From NCBI GenBank assembly GCA_016125225.1, contig WGME01000007.1, forward strand, positions 124,001 to 188,000: a DNA stretch of 64,000 bases, read 5' to 3'. The notes beneath the pieces are model-generated. The model made no database searches. It had not been told where the DNA came from and worked only from the letters and a program-made list of their open reading frames with translations. Position 1 is the first letter of the stretch. Each line of letters opens with the position of its first letter. Shown here in pieces: positions 53,673 to 60,550 of this stretch. Position numbers and translations under genes: made by a program. This stretch comes from a bacterium. GTDB lineage: Bacteria; Planctomycetota; Planctomycetia; Planctomycetales; Planctomycetaceae.

Positions 53673-55448
53673 TCAGGCTTCCACCACGACGAGCATTTCC
53701 CGAGGCATGGCCTGGCAGGCAAGGATGTATCCCTGCGTTTCTTCCGCGGGAGACAAGGCGTCGCGGCTTTCCATATGGACTCTGCCGGTCGTGCAGCGGA
53801 TCTTGCATTGACCGCAGATGCCGCTACGGCATTCCCAGCTGAGGCTGACTCCGGCAGACTCCGCCGCATCCAGAATGGAATCGGTCGCGGTGATTTCGAT
53901 CGATTCTCCCGAGCGGCTGAACGTGACGGTTGCCGAAGCGATCGTTGCATTTGCCATGTCTGCTCTTGAAGAGGCGCCCGACACCTCCGTCTCGGCGGCT
54001 GTCGCCGCCGGTGAGACGAACTCCTCAGTCGCAATGTGCTCTGGTGGAACTCCTGCTATTAACAATTGTTCGCAGGTGGCATCCATCATGGGATCGGGGC
54101 CGCAGAGAAAGATCGGTGCCGTGACGAGGTGTGGGCCCAGGCGTTTCAGGCTGTCCTGCGAGAGGTAGCCCGACTCGGCATGCCAATTCGTGAGGAGCTT
54201 ATCCGTTGAGTGAGCGGGCAGTTCCTTGCTGTAATGATTCCAGACGTGCAGGTTCGCAAACCGCTCGGCCAGTTGCTGCAATTCCTGGTGGAAGATGTAG
54301 TCGCGCGGTGTGCGAATGACATTGATGAAGTCGATACGCCCAGTCCAGTTCCGATCGGTCAGGTATCTCAGGATCGACATCAACGGAGTGATGCCGACAC
54401 CACCGCTGATGAGTATCACGGCGTCAGCCGATTGGCCGTCGAAATGAAACTTGCCAGCCGGGGCGGCAATTTTCAGGCGATTTCCAGGTTGCAGATGATC
54501 GTGCAGGTACTGTGACACGAGCCCAGCCGGGTTCCGCTTGATGGTTAACTCGACATAGCTTCGTTGTGTGGGGGCAGAGGCAATGGTGTAGCTGCGTCGG
54601 ACCGGCTTGCCATCGATCGTTAATGACAACGTGAGATACTGTCCCGGCAGGTGCAGAAACGGGATCTCCGCCTGTTCGGGATGTGTCAGCCGGAACGTTT
54701 TGACGTCGTGGGTCTCCTGAACGATCTGGCTGACGACAAGTTCGCCTTGAAAGAACGCGGCTTTTTGCGGTGGCGACTTCGTTACCGGTTTCCGCGAAGA
54801 CTTGTCCTTCTTGTCGAGCAAGTGCTTGATGGGGCGATACGCCAAGAGGGGAGTCAGCACGATGGCAAACGCGACAGGCTGGCGGATATCACTTTTCACC
54901 TGCATATAAAAATGGACGACGGCCAGTATTGCCACGACATATGTCAGGCGGTGGAGCAATTTCCAGCGCGCGGCCCCGAGTTGGCGAATCATGCCATTGG
55001 TGCTGGTCACCGCCAGAGGCAACATCAACATCAAGGCGATGAAACCGACGAGGAGAAATCGTCGTTTGGCGATTTCGTCGAAGGTGCTGGGCAAACTTCC
55101 CAGGCGATCAAATCCGAAGTAAATGCCGAAATGAAGAGCTGCATAGACAAAGGCATAGACCCCCAAAGCCCGGCGATAGGCAATGAGAGAATTCCAGCCT
55201 GTGGCGGACCGTAAGGGAGTGATGATGAGTGACAGGAACAGAAAGACCAACGAGAGCAACCCCGTGATGTGGATCGCCACATTGACCGCATTGGCTCCGA
55301 GTTGCCCGTGCCACGCATCCCAGGCCAGAATCAACGCCGGCACCGCGCCGTTCAAGATGGCCAGGTTGCGATAAAACGAGAGATTCATAAAGTTGTCCGT
55401 AGCAGAGTCGTCCCACCGAAAGTGGCTCTTGAGCGTGAAGCGTTCCAT
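53673..55448 (-). CDS. msrQ: MsrQ-like haem membrane protein fused to flavin reductase and 2Fe-2S ferredoxin
   Basis: 591-aa three-part protein. Residues about 20-215 are a multi-helix haem b domain of the ferric-reductase-like/MsrQ type with His in ALHFGIYFGF and LLHRLTYVVAILAVVHF. Residues about 235-485 are an FAD/NAD(P)H reductase (RRSYTIAS, ISGGVGITPLMSIL, FLCGPDPMMDA). Residues about 500-591 are a plant-type ferredoxin with C540, C545, C548 and C578. It would pass electrons from NAD(P)H through FAD and the iron-sulfur centre to haem and on to MsrP. Classical MsrQ has only the membrane domain, so the fusion makes the chain self-contained. Start at 55448; an ATG at 55388 is a shorter alternative. 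It follows msrP by 52 bp. Confidence 0.87.
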   Translation of the reverse strand: MERFTLKSHFRWDDSATDNFMNLSFYRNLAILNGAVPALILAWDAWHGQLGANAVNVAIHITGLLSLVFLFLSLIITPLRSATGWNSLIAYRRALGVYAFVYAALHFGIYFGFDRLGSLPSTFDEIAKRRFLLVGFIALMLMLPLAVTSTNGMIRQLGAARWKLLHRLTYVVAILAVVHFYMQVKSDIRQPVAFAIVLTPLLAYRPIKHLLDKKDKSSRKPVTKSPPQKAAFFQGELVVSQIVQETHDVKTFRLTHPEQAEIPFLHLPGQYLTLSLTIDGKPVRRSYTIASAPTQRSYVELTIKRNPAGLVSQYLHDHLQPGNRLKIAAPAGKFHFDGQSADAVILISGGVGITPLMSILRYLTDRNWTGRIDFINVIRTPRDYIFHQELQQLAERFANLHVWNHYSKELPAHSTDKLLTNWHAESGYLSQDSLKRLGPHLVTAPIFLCGPDPMMDATCEQLLIAGVPPEHIATEEFVSPAATAAETEVSGASSRADMANATIASATVTFSRSGESIEITATDSILDAAESAGVSLSWECRSGICGQCKIRCTTGRVHMESRDALSPAEETQGYILACQAMPREMLVVVEA

Positions 55449-55500
55449 TCAGACAAGTCGCGAAACCTGATGGTCCTTCCGAGATCGGCTGCTGTGTCGA

Positions 55501-56499
55501 TTAGAAGTTGATGGAGAGATCTTCTCCGTCATAGAGCGCCGCGACATGGCTTTCATATCCATTGAACATCAGCGTCCGCCGGCGACCACTTTCGCCGATG
55601 CGTTGTTCCGTCGCCTGACTCCAGCGGGGATGCGGCACTTCCGGATTCACATTCGCATAGAATCCATATTCGTACTCGGAATAACGATTCCAACTGGTGG
55701 GGGGCTGCTCGGCCGTGACGGTAATACGGACAATCGACTTGATGCCTTTGAAACCGTACTTCCAGGGAATGACCAATCGCACGGGAGCACCATCCTGCGG
55801 CGGTAGTTCTTCCCCGTACAACCCCATGGCCAGCAATGTCAGCGGATTCTGCGCCTCATCCAATCGGAGGCCTTCAACATACGGCCAGTCCAGCACCCGG
55901 GTGTTCTGCCCCGGCATGCGGAGCGGGTCGTACAGGGTCTGGAAGGCCACATATTTAGCAATCGGCATTGGACGGACAACATCCAGCAAAGCCGCCAGGG
56001 GAATTCCGTTCCAGGGAATTACCATCGACCAGGCTTCCACGCACCGCATCCGGTAGATGCGTTCTTCGAGGGGCGCAAGCTGACGCAGGTCATCCATGCT
56101 CAGCGTTTGCGGTGACTCCACCAACCCATCAACAGTGATGCTCCATCCCGTTGTATCAAACCCCTCCGCCATCGCCGCGACGGCGGTTTTATTCGTGGTG
56201 AATTCGTAGAAGTTGTTGTAGGTCACAATGTCTTGCCGGGGCGTTAAATCGTCTTCAACCAGATAACCCTTGGCGACGAGATCGGCCTCGTTGACCGCTG
56301 CGTGCTCGACTCCATCCAGTCGACGCCCCGCCTTAACCACCTTCGGAATCGGATTGAACGCTCGATAGACTCCGTAGGTGGCCATGACCGAGCCCGCTGT
56401 CACTGCCGTCTTCAGCCATGTCCGTCGGTTCAGATACAGCGATTGCGGGGTCACTTCCGCTTCGATGTCACGACCCGAGAATTCCATTTTCGTATTCAT
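55501..56499 (-). CDS. msrP: protein-methionine-sulfoxide reductase catalytic subunit MsrP
   Basis: 332-aa periplasmic molybdopterin enzyme of the YedY/MsrP type, which reduces methionine sulfoxide in exported proteins. Tat signal [13 protein letters not shown], Mo-binding Cys153 in [16 protein letters not shown], and the C-terminal [14 protein letters not shown] segment are visible. The ATG at 56499 is used since the signal follows within 25 residues; a longer upstream opening is unlikely. It is transcribed with MsrQ downstream and a Met-rich lipoprotein upstream. Confidence 0.92.
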
Positions 56500-56706
56500 G
56501 ATCGCTCTTAGCCTGCGGAAACAACGGAGAACTTCAGACCTGCAGTGGTCCTGCGGTGACGAACTTCTACGACCTGAAATAGCACACGACTTCGAAGCAC
56601 CCACTCAGTACCGCTACCATCTCGATTTTGCCGCGAACCATAGCAGAAAACTCACACGGGGCCATCCGGGATTTTCGAGCGACAGGCAGCCTCGCCTCCG
56701 TTGGAG

Positions 56707-57039
56707 TTACTTCTTATCGGAAGTGGCGGCATCGTCCATTTTTGGTGCCATCGGCATTTTAGCGTCTGAACCGGTTGTGGTCATCGCTGGTTTCTCCATC
56801 ATCGCGTCGTTCGTCATGCCCTCCTTGGACATCGACATCTCCTGCATGCCGTGATCCGTCATGGAACCACCGGCCATGCCATCCTGCTGCATGGTTGTGC
56901 CATCCATCGTCGTTTCCGTCATCATCTCCGCATTTGTGCCAGAATTGGTCATCATTTTCTGCGGCGCTTGTGAGCAGGCCGCCAGGGTGAAGAGGGACAG
57001 GCTTGAAAGCAGAATCGCGGTTGGCAAGGGCTTTTTCAT
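56707..57039 (-). CDS. methionine-rich lipoprotein (MrpX-like)
   Basis: 110-aa protein with a lipobox LAAC (Cys22). The mature 89 residues hold 18 Met (about 20%), with little else apart from Thr, Gly, Asp and Ser: MTETTMDGTTM and MQEMSMSKEGM. No enzymatic motif. A GGAG sits 6 nt ahead of the ATG at 57039. In Azospira a Met-rich periplasmic protein (MrpX) scavenges hypochlorite and is repaired by the YedY/MsrP system; composition and position next to msrPQ make the same job likely here, but sequence similarity to MrpX was not checked. Confidence 0.85.
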   Translation of the reverse strand: MKKPLPTAILLSSLSLFTLAACSQAPQKMMTNSGTNAEMMTETTMDGTTMQQDGMAGGSMTDHGMQEMSMSKEGMTNDAMMEKPAMTTTGSDAKMPMAPKMDDAATSDKK

Positions 57040-57271: not shown

Positions 57272-60200
57272 TCAGCGAGCCGCGGGGGCTTGGGCTGCGT
57301 CTCTTAATACCGGCAGATCGACAGCTCGCAATAATCCGAAGCAGAAGAGTTCCGGACATTGGTCATACGTCCGACTTTCCGCAATGACCTGCTTCAGTGA
57401 TTCCAAAGGCCGGTGTTCGGTGACGCGGTAATTCATCGTCGGCTGTAGTCCTTGCATGATGAGACCAATCGCGGAAGACCTGGGGCCATCCGTGATCAGT
57501 TCCAAAGTCTGAACCGCATGGCGCTGTTGCCACCATTGTGCAACCGCCTGCAGTTGCCCGGTTTGGACGCCAAGCGGACGCTCCGCGACGGTGGCCACCA
57601 TCAAGGCCCAGAGGTAGGCATGATGCGGCATGGCACATTCGCCGAAATAAAACAGGTCGACAGCCAGCACGCGATGCCCCTCTTGCAGTAGCTGCTCGAT
57701 ACGCGCCTCCGTCGACTTTCGTCCGTCGTCGCTGATGACCAGGGCCAGCTTCTGCGAATCGGCCCGTGCGAATTCCGTCGCGGGGATCGTCCAGTCCTGT
57801 CCGATCTGCAGTTGCCATTGAGTGGTGGTTAGCCCATCACGCGTGGTTTGCTGGACCTCATTGGCAGTGATGGCGCCGGTAATCGGCCGCACCACACCCT
57901 GCAGGCGCTGCGCCAACTCTTGACGCCAGGCCAGTGTCTCGGAAGCGACCGTGGGTTTCGGTGTGACTTCCGGGAGACTTTGAGCGAGATGTGTCGCGAC
58001 TGCATGAAAATCGAGGTTCACCGTGGGGAGTGGTACGGACAGCGTTTCCCGAGACTGAATTTCGTCCTGCAATGGTTGTTCGATAGTGGCGAAGCGGGAT
58101 TCGTCACCATCGAACCATTGGTCGCGAAGCATGCAGTACAACGCCTGACGATTGTCGAGCAGAAAGTTGTGCGTTCCCGGATCGCTATTCACATGGGTCC
58201 GGAGCCGTTGCGGCACTCCCAACAGGTCATACACGGGCGTCGCGGCTTCCTGTAACGGGGCCAACGCATGCCCGGAGGCGAAGCAGCATTGATCTTTTTC
58301 ATTGAATGTCAGCAGAGCTGCACGCGGGGCCAGCAATGTGGTTAACGTGGCATAGTCGGCGACGGAACCCAAATCCGTCGGGGTCTGTTCGGAATCGCCA
58401 AGGTCGGTGTAGTTATCGATCCGCGTCAGGAAACTTGAATAGCCCGCAACGGGGTTGCACAGGGTCACACGAGGGTCGAGTGAACTGAAGAAAATGGTTT
58501 GCCAACCACCGCCGGAAAGCCCGGCGACTCCCACTCGGGTTTCGTCCGCCTGCTCGAGCGACAAGAGATAATCGATACCGCGCGACATCGACAGGAAGAA
58601 GGGGGCCACGCCGCTGGCTCCGCACAGATCGAGTTGGTTCATGCGGGCATGCGAAAACCCCGCCGTGCCCAACTGACCCATCCCGAACCATTCCAGATTG
58701 AGCGACATCACACCCTGCCGGGCCAGATGAATGCAGCGGGCCTGCTTGTAGTCCGCCGCCTTGCCTGCCGAATCGTGACCATTCACATTCAGGAAGACAG
58801 GCACCTTGCCGGAGATGTTCTGCGGCACATACAGCAACGCGGGAATCCACATGTCGGGCAAGACTTCCAACCGTAGTTTGCGAATCTGATAACCCGGACC
58901 GGCTTCCAGCGTTTCCAGTTCTTCGACCTTCCCGGGCGTGTCGCGCCAATCAGCCGCAGGGCCTCGGAAGACGACTTTCTCTAAGGTTTCCTGTCGCTTG
59001 GCCTCGGCCCAATGTGTCCATTCCTGGGCATCGGTCATTTTGGGAGGTAACGAAACCCGACTGCGGGTGAACCGCTGGACTTCTTTCATGGATTGTTCGG
59101 GGAGCAAGATTGGCTGCGTGAGGGCCGCGGCGATCTGTTCCGCGACTGCCGATGGCTCTTGTAAGACATCTGATCCCAGTCCGAACTTGGCGGGCAGGGG
59201 CAGGTTGGCCCAGGTGAAATCCTCTCCAAAGCGAAGTTGCCAGCGGCCTGCCAGCTTCAATGCTTGATCGCCGGATCGCAGTTCTGGCGGCATAGACAAG
59301 ACGTGCGCATTTGGCTTCGCGATCAGTCGCAGCACCAGCAGATTCACCTCGTCGCCGGGAAACAGATTGCCGGGAATTGAGAACGTCGTGCTGCCATCAG
59401 AGACGCTCGCCTCCAGCTTTGTGCCATTGATCCAGGCCTGGGCATCGGCTGCGGAAACCTGCAGTTGGAGATCCTTACCTGGGAGTGATGGCGAAGGGAC
59501 TCGCACGGAACAGCGGCACCAGACCGGTTGCGAAGCCGTCAGCGGGGCAATCTCTGTCACCGGGTTTGTGATCGCGGTGGTGATCCACTCCGGCGGTGTG
59601 GTTAATGTCTTAGCATCTGTGGCCGCGAGCGCGAAAATGTCACGGTCCCGGCGCTGATCAAATCGGGGTCGAAACGTTTCGCCGCCAAGAATCTGGTCGC
59701 TGGTGATGGTCGGGCAGATGAACCGCTCCACATGCGCGACGACGAGATCGTTCCCCGTAAAGTGATCGACATACGGCCAACGCTGCGGGTTGTACATGCA
59801 ATCGGTCAGATCGCGGACCAGCACCACGTCTTTGCCGTTGCGGGCCAGTTGTCGCAAACCGAAGGGCCGTCCCAGCACACACATATTGGTGTGCACTCCA
59901 ACCAGCATGACGTGCTGGATGCCACGGGATTCGAGAATGTTCCAGACTTCATCGCCGCGATCGCTGATGAAATCGACTTGGTCGTCGATCGTGATGCCCG
60001 GATGCTCCGCCTGCCAGGGCAGTGCAGGATTGCGGCCAGCGGCGGAGAGTTCGGCTGCCCATTTCGCGTGTTCCTCGGGGTTGTCATCGTCACCGCCATC
60101 CGATTGATCGATGGGATAAACGGCTTGCTCTTCTGCCGGAATCCGCGAGCACCAATAGGGAATGTCGCGCGGAAGATTCTTTGCGACGGATGCGGACATC

Positions 60201-60550
60201 GCCCGAGTTCGAGCCGGATGATTCTGGTAAGCCGCCATACAATCGCTGGGGGCGTGGATAATCGTCGCACCCTGTTCGCGGGTCGCTTTGAGCAGGGCGT
60301 CCATGCGTGGCACAAATTCTTCCATGCGCCGCACCGCGTTGATGCTGTGGTGCTTGTCCCAAACGTCACAGACAATGACGGCAGTCTGGGCGGCTGGCCA
60401 TTTTTCTGATGCCATGTGACGCTGCATCTGGCCGGTCTTCGCATCAGTCGAGACGGTCCGGGGATGCAGAGAAAAGTCCTGGCCGTTTCCTGTCTGAGCA
60501 GGTCCGAGCAACCAGAGCATGACAAGCAGAGTGGTGTAACAGGTACGCAT
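57272..60550 (-). CDS. secreted isochorismatase-like / acetyl-xylan-esterase-like fusion
   Basis: 1092-aa exported protein with a signal peptide (CYTTLLVMLWLLGPAQTGNGQ). Residues about 50-285 form a cysteine hydrolase of the isochorismatase fold: VIVCDVWDKHH (D62) and GVHTNMCVLGRPFG (C224). A beta-rich linker region spans about 300-470. Residues about 490-900 are an alpha/beta-hydrolase of the acetyl-xylan-esterase type with nucleophile VAGLSGGGWQT, and a further hydrolase-like region follows (ALVISDDGRKSTEARI). The catalytic lysine of the isochorismatase domain was not found with certainty, so the first domain may be inactive or use another residue. Substrates unknown. Confidence 0.83.
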   Translation of the reverse strand: MRTCYTTLLVMLWLLGPAQTGNGQDFSLHPRTVSTDAKTGQMQRHMASEKWPAAQTAVIVCDVWDKHHSINAVRRMEEFVPRMDALLKATREQGATIIHAPSDCMAAYQNHPARTRAMSASVAKNLPRDIPYWCSRIPAEEQAVYPIDQSDGGDDDNPEEHAKWAAELSAAGRNPALPWQAEHPGITIDDQVDFISDRGDEVWNILESRGIQHVMLVGVHTNMCVLGRPFGLRQLARNGKDVVLVRDLTDCMYNPQRWPYVDHFTGNDLVVAHVERFICPTITSDQILGGETFRPRFDQRRDRDIFALAATDAKTLTTPPEWITTAITNPVTEIAPLTASQPVWCRCSVRVPSPSLPGKDLQLQVSAADAQAWINGTKLEASVSDGSTTFSIPGNLFPGDEVNLLVLRLIAKPNAHVLSMPPELRSGDQALKLAGRWQLRFGEDFTWANLPLPAKFGLGSDVLQEPSAVAEQIAAALTQPILLPEQSMKEVQRFTRSRVSLPPKMTDAQEWTHWAEAKRQETLEKVVFRGPAADWRDTPGKVEELETLEAGPGYQIRKLRLEVLPDMWIPALLYVPQNISGKVPVFLNVNGHDSAGKAADYKQARCIHLARQGVMSLNLEWFGMGQLGTAGFSHARMNQLDLCGASGVAPFFLSMSRGIDYLLSLEQADETRVGVAGLSGGGWQTIFFSSLDPRVTLCNPVAGYSSFLTRIDNYTDLGDSEQTPTDLGSVADYATLTTLLAPRAALLTFNEKDQCCFASGHALAPLQEAATPVYDLLGVPQRLRTHVNSDPGTHNFLLDNRQALYCMLRDQWFDGDESRFATIEQPLQDEIQSRETLSVPLPTVNLDFHAVATHLAQSLPEVTPKPTVASETLAWRQELAQRLQGVVRPITGAITANEVQQTTRDGLTTTQWQLQIGQDWTIPATEFARADSQKLALVISDDGRKSTEARIEQLLQEGHRVLAVDLFYFGECAMPHHAYLWALMVATVAERPLGVQTGQLQAVAQWWQQRHAVQTLELITDGPRSSAIGLIMQGLQPTMNYRVTEHRPLESLKQVIAESRTYDQCPELFCFGLLRAVDLPVLRDAAQAPAAR

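Follow-up and report, generated by a model that had tools for sequence, protein, structure and literature searches.

We analyse a 64-kb stretch of planctomycete DNA (the window, by which we mean the whole stretch) and focus on three genes of its minus strand that encode, read from 57039 to 53673, a Met-rich lipoprotein, then the methionine sulfoxide reductase MsrP, and then an MsrQ-type protein fused to reductase and ferredoxin domains. The order of these genes, the families of their products, the cofactor-binding residues and the conservation of the arrangement across genera are established. Judging from the sequences and from the likeness to known systems, we consider it probable that the trio constitutes a periplasmic methionine redox cycle with a sacrificial, regenerable store of Met. 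An initial annotation of the window had already claimed three same-strand genes here, and all three are present.

Three genes of the window

The gene for the Met-rich lipoprotein (56707..57039, minus strand) opens with an ATG at 57039, a few bases downstream of a GGAG, and its stop codon ends at 56707. Its product of 110 amino acids (aa) begins with a signal peptide ending in the lipobox LAAC, both judged from the sequence pattern and by eye rather than with a trained signal-peptide predictor. Counted from the lipobox Cys, the mature chain has 89 residues, 18 of which are Met (20.2%), so that the count given in the initial annotation is correct. This chain has one His, contains MM and MxM pairs, and is devoid of Leu, Ile, Val, Phe, Trp, Tyr and Arg; no other frame in the window passes the Met-rich filter. 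We propose the protein as a sacrificial oxidant scavenger that is probably exported and lipid-anchored, with a mature chain that, from its composition, is probably disordered.

Family models describe this protein poorly. Against TIGR02953 (penta_MxKDx), the model of the MXKDX repeat family, it scores 31.4 bits and does not reach the cut-off of 41, even though it is the only match to that model in the whole genome at E <= 1. The lipoproteins of seven relatives give one weak match (25.8 bits) and six without a match. Used as a finder, the model picks out 12 of 392 genomes at E <= 0.01 without once reaching the cut-off, and it misses two genomes that have the gene (G274 and G315). Because true cases are missed in this way, we counted loci by inspection of the frames instead.

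The second gene, msrP, lies at 55501..56499 (minus strand) if its probable ATG at 56499 is taken as the start, within an open frame of 55501-56604 that begins with GTG. Its product scores 439.8 bits against NF003767, for which the equivalog cut-off is 207, and its nearest solved relative, to which we aligned it, is 1xdq (E 1.4e-94). The protein has a twin-arginine stretch, NRRTWLK, which we take to be a signal for twin-arginine translocation (Tat), and a Cys within RMRCVEAW that is presumably the molybdenum ligand. By family membership, then, it is a true MsrP, as first named, and is predicted to reduce Met sulfoxide.

The third gene (53673..55388, minus strand) departs from the stand-alone MsrQ format of about 210 aa. 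Its open frame, 53673-55448, codes for 591 aa; with the probable ATG at 55388, a start set by comparison with relatives, the product has 571 aa. The N-terminal third (residues 21-209) scores 160.9 bits against the MsrQ model NF003831 (cut-off 130), with PF01794 matched as well, and is followed by PF00970 (binding flavin adenine dinucleotide, FAD), PF00175 (NAD-binding) and, at the C terminus, PF00111 ([2Fe-2S] ferredoxin), all three over their cut-offs. Residues His91, His151 and His164 of E. coli MsrQ, which we take to be haem-related, correspond to H106, H166 and H179 of the window frame. An alignment of the 23 planctomycete fusions with E. coli MsrQ and a Sinorhizobium MsrQ retains these three His in every one of its 25 rows. 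A haem role for them is described in PMC3591440.

The motifs of the reductase part are equally well kept. FAD and NAD patterns are found in 22 of the 23 fusions, the other one (L073) carrying close variants. A loose ferredoxin pattern also occurs in 22 of 23 and a stricter four-Cys [2Fe-2S] pattern in 17; in five of the remaining six the fourth Cys can be read by eye, and in the sixth, L070, the frame is cut by the contig end. Since the FAD, NAD and His motifs are intact, a route from NAD(P)H through FAD and haem to MsrP is the direct reading of the domains. We infer that the fusion provides this route, and both the MsrQ name and the protein's own NAD(P)H-to-haem path proposed at the outset agree with the NF003831 score and the conserved domains.

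Outside the planctomycetes the comparison covered plasmid records. Only 2 of 791 such records cover at least 80% of the fused MsrQ query, neither of them at full length, and the best among the 25 matches listed is a Legionella FAD-binding oxidoreductase with 81% coverage and 37% identity. For MsrP, the first 3 of 40 listed matches (488 records) were inspected for context: in Azospirillum and Shewanella MsrQ is separate and no Met-rich gene is annotated next to it (the gene table there is incomplete), and in the Sinorhizobium record, unannotated at this place, there is only a 61-aa Met-rich frame on the opposite strand, overlapping the MsrQ match. A relative's Met-rich lipoprotein, searched against the plasmid records, gave no match, perhaps because simple sequence was masked.

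Conservation of the arrangement in planctomycetes

We next consider how far the arrangement extends among planctomycetes, using the fusion as query against 392 genomes of the phylum and 170 genomes of the family. In the phylum, 87 genomes match at E <= 1e-20, mostly through the reductase part alone, and in five the match reaches E <= 1e-130 and takes in the MsrQ part; two weak matches that extend into that part (G268, and G031 with an internal stop) are outside the loci counted below. In the family, 19 genomes match in 20 places at E <= 1e-95, weaker matches being left outside the count. To this set were added L003 and L005 from genome contigs and L070 from the phylum search, with L004 and contig C92 of genome G445, which are equal in length, counted as one locus. 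The result is a set of 22 planctomycete loci in which msrP lies directly beside a fused msrQ, msrP in view being required for counting. A further fused copy, L171, starts 212 bases from its contig end, shows no msrP in this interval, and is left out; it is the second fused msrQ gene (contig C123) in the genome, G484, that also holds L160.

A Met-rich lipobox frame lies upstream of msrP on the same strand in 13 of the 22 fused loci (the window, L003, L068, L069, L161-L168 and L173), which represent 7 of 12 genera or unplaced lineages, L003 and L005 being the unplaced ones. In all 12 relatives the lipobox reads VSGC, VVGC or VAGC, the VSGC of L167 and L168 having been read by eye since the regular expression first met an earlier AVSC. 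Mature chains across the 13 loci contain 16.5-26.8% Met and no more than one His; aromatic residues and additional Cys are confined to L167 and L168, where counting started at the earlier lipobox match. Compared by eye rather than by alignment, the lipoproteins are alike within a genus and hardly alike between genera, where Met spacing is not conserved either. What persists across genera is the lipobox, the Met content, the scarcity of His and the position near msrP, so that Met content, export and proximity to msrP seem to be conserved rather than sequence. One further locus, L174, has an unrelated Met-rich frame of 216 residues, among them 47 Met, that abuts the start of its contig, so that the 5' end of this frame and any lipoprotein gene farther upstream are out of view.

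For controls we took 57 regions around MsrP-type matches and removed one second molybdopterin oxidoreductase and four fused loci, which leaves 52. At E <= 1e-3 the 6 kb around these genes contain no MsrQ-domain match, and a Met-rich lipoprotein is found in 0 of 52. Among the 186 lipobox frames in the 617,146 bases of these loci, none reaches 15% Met and one reaches 10% (39 aa, chance-like). Within 5 kb of the control genes there are eight frames of 10-13% Met, also chance-like, and none of them has a lipobox signal peptide (by eye) or lies less than 1 kb from msrP; the fused locus L163 has a similar chance-like frame, of 61 aa, on its downstream side. Two control loci, L115 and L122, start no more than 260 bases from msrP and so could not reveal an upstream gene. 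Comparing 13 of 22 fused with 0 of 52 control loci gives a Fisher p of 4.8e-9, a value that ignores kinship and, the loci being related, overstates the case. Because the Met-rich frame is the only one in the window to pass the filter, because no lipobox frame of the controls reaches 15% Met, and because the arrangement recurs in other genera, the observation is not due to chance.

In a tree of 77 MsrP proteins, from which the duplicate L004 and the fragment L122 were left out, the 22 MsrP encoded beside a fused msrQ group as one clade (support 97/91) next to four proteobacterial MsrP, themselves grouped with support 86/57. Across a supported branch lie 50 of the 51 other planctomycete MsrP-like proteins, the exception being L087, on a long branch. 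With this one exception, the 52 control loci (L071-L123 without L073) are a separate group, lacking an MsrQ-domain match within 6 kb, yet they exceed the NF003767 cut-off; the model may be naming a different enzyme MsrP in these loci.

A proposed sacrificial Met store and its alternatives

The cycle that we propose would run as follows. A lipid-tethered, exported lipoprotein would offer many exposed Met in a probably unfolded chain, and hypochlorous acid (HOCl) or another strong oxidant would convert these to Met sulfoxide, sparing essential envelope proteins. Tat-exported MsrP would reduce the sulfoxides of the lipoprotein back to Met. Its electrons would come from the MsrQ domain in the membrane, by way of the haem, and cytosolic NAD(P)H would feed this domain via FAD within the same polypeptide; the ferredoxin domain could act as an extra or alternative relay. 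A tethered, Met-rich and probably disordered chain has the properties called for in a sacrificial trap for oxidants, and MsrP with its source of electrons those called for in resetting it. From the sequences and by analogy we infer both the uptake of hypochlorite by the lipoprotein and its recharging by MsrP, and with them the lipidation and location of the protein, the disorder of its chain, the oxidation of its Met, the route of the electrons, the identity of the oxidant and the co-transcription of the genes.

Several observations weigh against this cycle. A Met-rich gene upstream on the same strand is lacking in 8 of the 22 fused loci (L005, L070, L073, L159, L160, L169, L170 and L172), and for seven of these eight the surrounding 5 kb, to the extent that the contigs cover it, hold no Met-rich gene on either strand; MsrP-MsrQ evidently exists without the lipoprotein. 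Mapped on the MsrP tree, the Met-rich label requires at least four gains or losses. At the locus itself, 207 bases lie between the lipoprotein gene and the probable start of msrP. Promoters and terminators predicted at the trio do not exceed those of shuffled sequence, so that an operon is only putative. Neither of the two genes flanking the trio encodes a SigF/NrsF-type regulator. Finally, an AlphaFold model of the fusion, built from four sequences, has a mean predicted local distance difference test (pLDDT) score of 55, too poor to judge the electron path. The initial annotation had named absence of the Met-rich gene beside msrP in relatives as grounds for abandoning the idea. Such a general absence did not occur, with the gene present in 13 of 22 loci and 7 of 12 genera or lineages, but conservation is partial: beyond the eight loci, the two other genomes of the window's own genus (99% and 64% complete) have no MsrP match at E <= 1e-10.

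The main rival, which we regard as unlikely, is that the lipoprotein is a buffer for Cu(I) and that MsrPQ keeps its Met ligands reduced. Met is a ligand of Cu(I), the window chain has MM and MxM pairs, and E. coli msrPQ is copper-induced, its products restoring the copper chaperone CusF (PMC9302797). Such a buffer fits less well with mature chains that have 0-1 His and with a Met spacing that is not conserved between genera. Among the neighbours that recur in at least two genera around the fused loci we recognised no copper-related family, judging by eye from the first 100 residues, a weak test because of that judgement by eye and because frame-picking lost some real genes, including most lipoprotein genes.

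The lipoprotein might also be an unrelated, low-complexity surface lipoprotein that merely adjoins an ordinary envelope repair system. Its absence upstream of msrP in the eight loci and its almost unconserved sequence between genera are what this explanation would predict; the contrast between fused and control loci, the spread over genera and the retention of Met content as the sequence changes are not, and we hold it to be quite improbable. It is equally hard to favour, and we judge it very improbable, that the Met-rich chain is a sensor or switch whose oxidation releases an envelope-stress signal, in place of a bulk sink. At L170 a gene for an extracytoplasmic function (ECF) sigma factor and a short Cys-containing frame do lie directly upstream of msrP, but L170 is itself without a Met-rich gene, the chains have no visible common motif for a partner to recognise, and neither gene flanking the trio of the window is a regulator. 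That the fused MsrQ is mainly an oxidase or ferric reductase with MsrP as a side partner is barely credible: bacterial NOX proteins have the same plan of ferric reductase domain (FRD) and ferredoxin-NADP reductase (FNR) (PMC5676040) and some MsrQ-like clusters resemble iron reductases (PMC8238504), yet msrP is directly upstream in all 22 counted loci (as the count required), the MsrQ equivalog cut-off is exceeded, and the sole fused copy without msrP in view is L171, at its contig end.

Returning to the sacrificial Met store, we can extend it into a more specific and decidedly more tentative proposal, which on balance we would not yet bet on: a 'redox capacitor' of the planctomycete envelope in which lipid-tethered, unfolded Met chains would be selected for composition rather than sequence and recharged from cytosolic NAD(P)H through one FAD/haem/[2Fe-2S] polypeptide, some genomes having an unrelated exported protein of about 250 aa and 21-26% Met added to them or in their place. 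If this were true, it would define an MsrPQ branch in which the outer envelope is defended by direct use of NAD(P)H, independently of the quinone pool.

Relation to known systems

Systems with this logic are known from proteobacteria. In Azospira suillum, the MrpX-YedY1-YedZ system, part of the SigF/NrsF regulon, has a Met-rich peptide that is described as scavenging hypochlorite by periplasmic methionine cycling (PMC4623255, PMC5748585). The comparable MrpX/YedY arrangement invoked by the initial annotation is indeed described in these papers: in both organisms a Met-rich peptide is encoded with MsrP and MsrQ homologues. Azospira YedZ takes electrons from quinones (according to a figure legend in PMC5748585), whereas the window MsrQ carries FAD/NAD(P)H and ferredoxin domains of its own. 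The Met-rich protein of the window is a predicted lipoprotein, which may set it apart from MrpX, and no sigma/anti-sigma gene adjoins the trio.

In Brucella melitensis, the BcrXQP operon (under the ECF pair BcrS-AbcS) is cotranscribed, induced by HOCl and contributes to HOCl resistance, and here too a Met-rich protein, with MXKDX repeats, is encoded with MsrQ and MsrP homologues (PMC8315932). The gene for the ECF sigma factor is adjacent, and PMC8315932 treats the operon as a homologue of E. coli MsrQP. The Met-rich protein of the window falls below the cut-off of the MXKDX family. The window shares with the MrpX/BcrX type a small Met-rich protein, predicted to be exported, that is encoded with msrP and msrQ, and differs from it in having no adjacent ECF sigma/anti-sigma genes, where a distant regulator may act instead.

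E. coli has the same MsrP-MsrQ enzymes, and the annotated neighbours of its msrPQ are hiuH, hprRS and zinT, with no Met-rich gene annotated. Its reductase Fre, which is not known to have a ferredoxin domain, is a separate protein, while the window reductase is part of MsrQ and comes with a ferredoxin domain. Fre, of the FNR family, passes electrons from NADPH to MsrQ (PMC5676040, PMC11031084). Fusions of this general kind are on record: an MsrQ-like ferric-reductase domain with NAD-binding PF00175 was found in 1437 clusters (PMC8238504), and FRD with ferredoxin/Fer2 was given as a domain model in 2013 (PMC3591440). The clusters of PMC8238504 are defined by FMN-binding or ApbE genes (flavinylation), and no MsrP or Met-rich partner is described in the accessible part of that paper. 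The earlier claim of a 'distinct version' is fair, although by itself the fusion is no novelty, since NAD-binding domains on MsrQ-like proteins have been published (PMC8238504). With these and FRD-Fer2 fusions known, the novelty lies in finding such a fusion together with MsrP and a Met store in lipoprotein form; what is apparently new is that planctomycetes combine a lipid anchor, an MsrP partner that takes in NAD(P)H electrons itself, and Met stores of several kinds. No Met-rich lipoprotein with a fused MsrQ was evident in the titles and abstract openings that the literature search covered, a scope in which subscription papers mostly did not fall.

A sacrificial, rechargeable protein antioxidant is a rare concept, and these comparisons extend it to the planctomycetes. 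The fused MsrQ bears on the question of whether MsrQ takes its electrons from the quinone pool or from a Fre-type flavin reductase. Since the fusion contains its own path for NAD(P)H electrons, repair of Met at the expense of NAD(P)H becomes accessible to assay with two purified proteins. The set of 22 loci lets the presence or absence of a Met store be read on one MsrP tree, and chains that keep their Met content while losing sequence identity look like selection on composition.

Neighbouring genes and other Met-rich proteins

A second class of Met-rich protein, of about 250 aa with 21-26% Met, occurs in 3 of the 170 family genomes, each less than 90% complete, and those copies with a visible start have an export signal (by eye). 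Two of its genes are near msrP and a fused msrQ: one at L160 (257 aa, 55 Met), about 3 kb upstream of msrP on the opposite strand, and the other at L174, just upstream of msrP. The third, L179 4892-5641 (249 aa, 66 Met), adjoins a two-component system (by eye), on an 8-kb contig with no msrP.

Five loci from two genera (L160, L164, L165, L167 and L168) have a gene for a DUF1223 protein just ahead of msrP, and in the four of these that bear a lipoprotein it sits between the lipoprotein gene and msrP. L160 (197.6 bits) and L167 (183.5 bits) were assigned with Pfam, and L164, L165 and L168 by sequence clustering. The SEGCSSCP stretch of the protein looks thioredoxin-like, and as a guess the protein could be a periplasmic thiol-redox helper. 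The window genome has one DUF1223 match over the cut-off elsewhere, on contig C32.

At L170, the ECF sigma factor (PF04542, 41.9 bits) is followed by the Cys-containing frame of 82 aa, for which Pfam gave no match, the two together lying about 1.0-0.1 kb upstream of msrP; this recalls the sigma/anti-sigma control of the proteobacterial systems. The window genome also has two PF06778 matches (164.3 and 45.1 bits), which we had considered as a chlorine or chlorite context and then dropped, because PF06778 also holds HemQ and is uninformative on chlorite.

In the Pfam scan, the genes that flank the trio of the window encode GFO/IDH and isochorismatase/esterase-like proteins. The latter (57272-60550, minus strand) is upstream of the lipoprotein gene on the same strand, and its product of 1092 aa has an isochorismatase-like N-terminal part together with an acetyl-xylan-esterase-like part that scores just under its cut-off.

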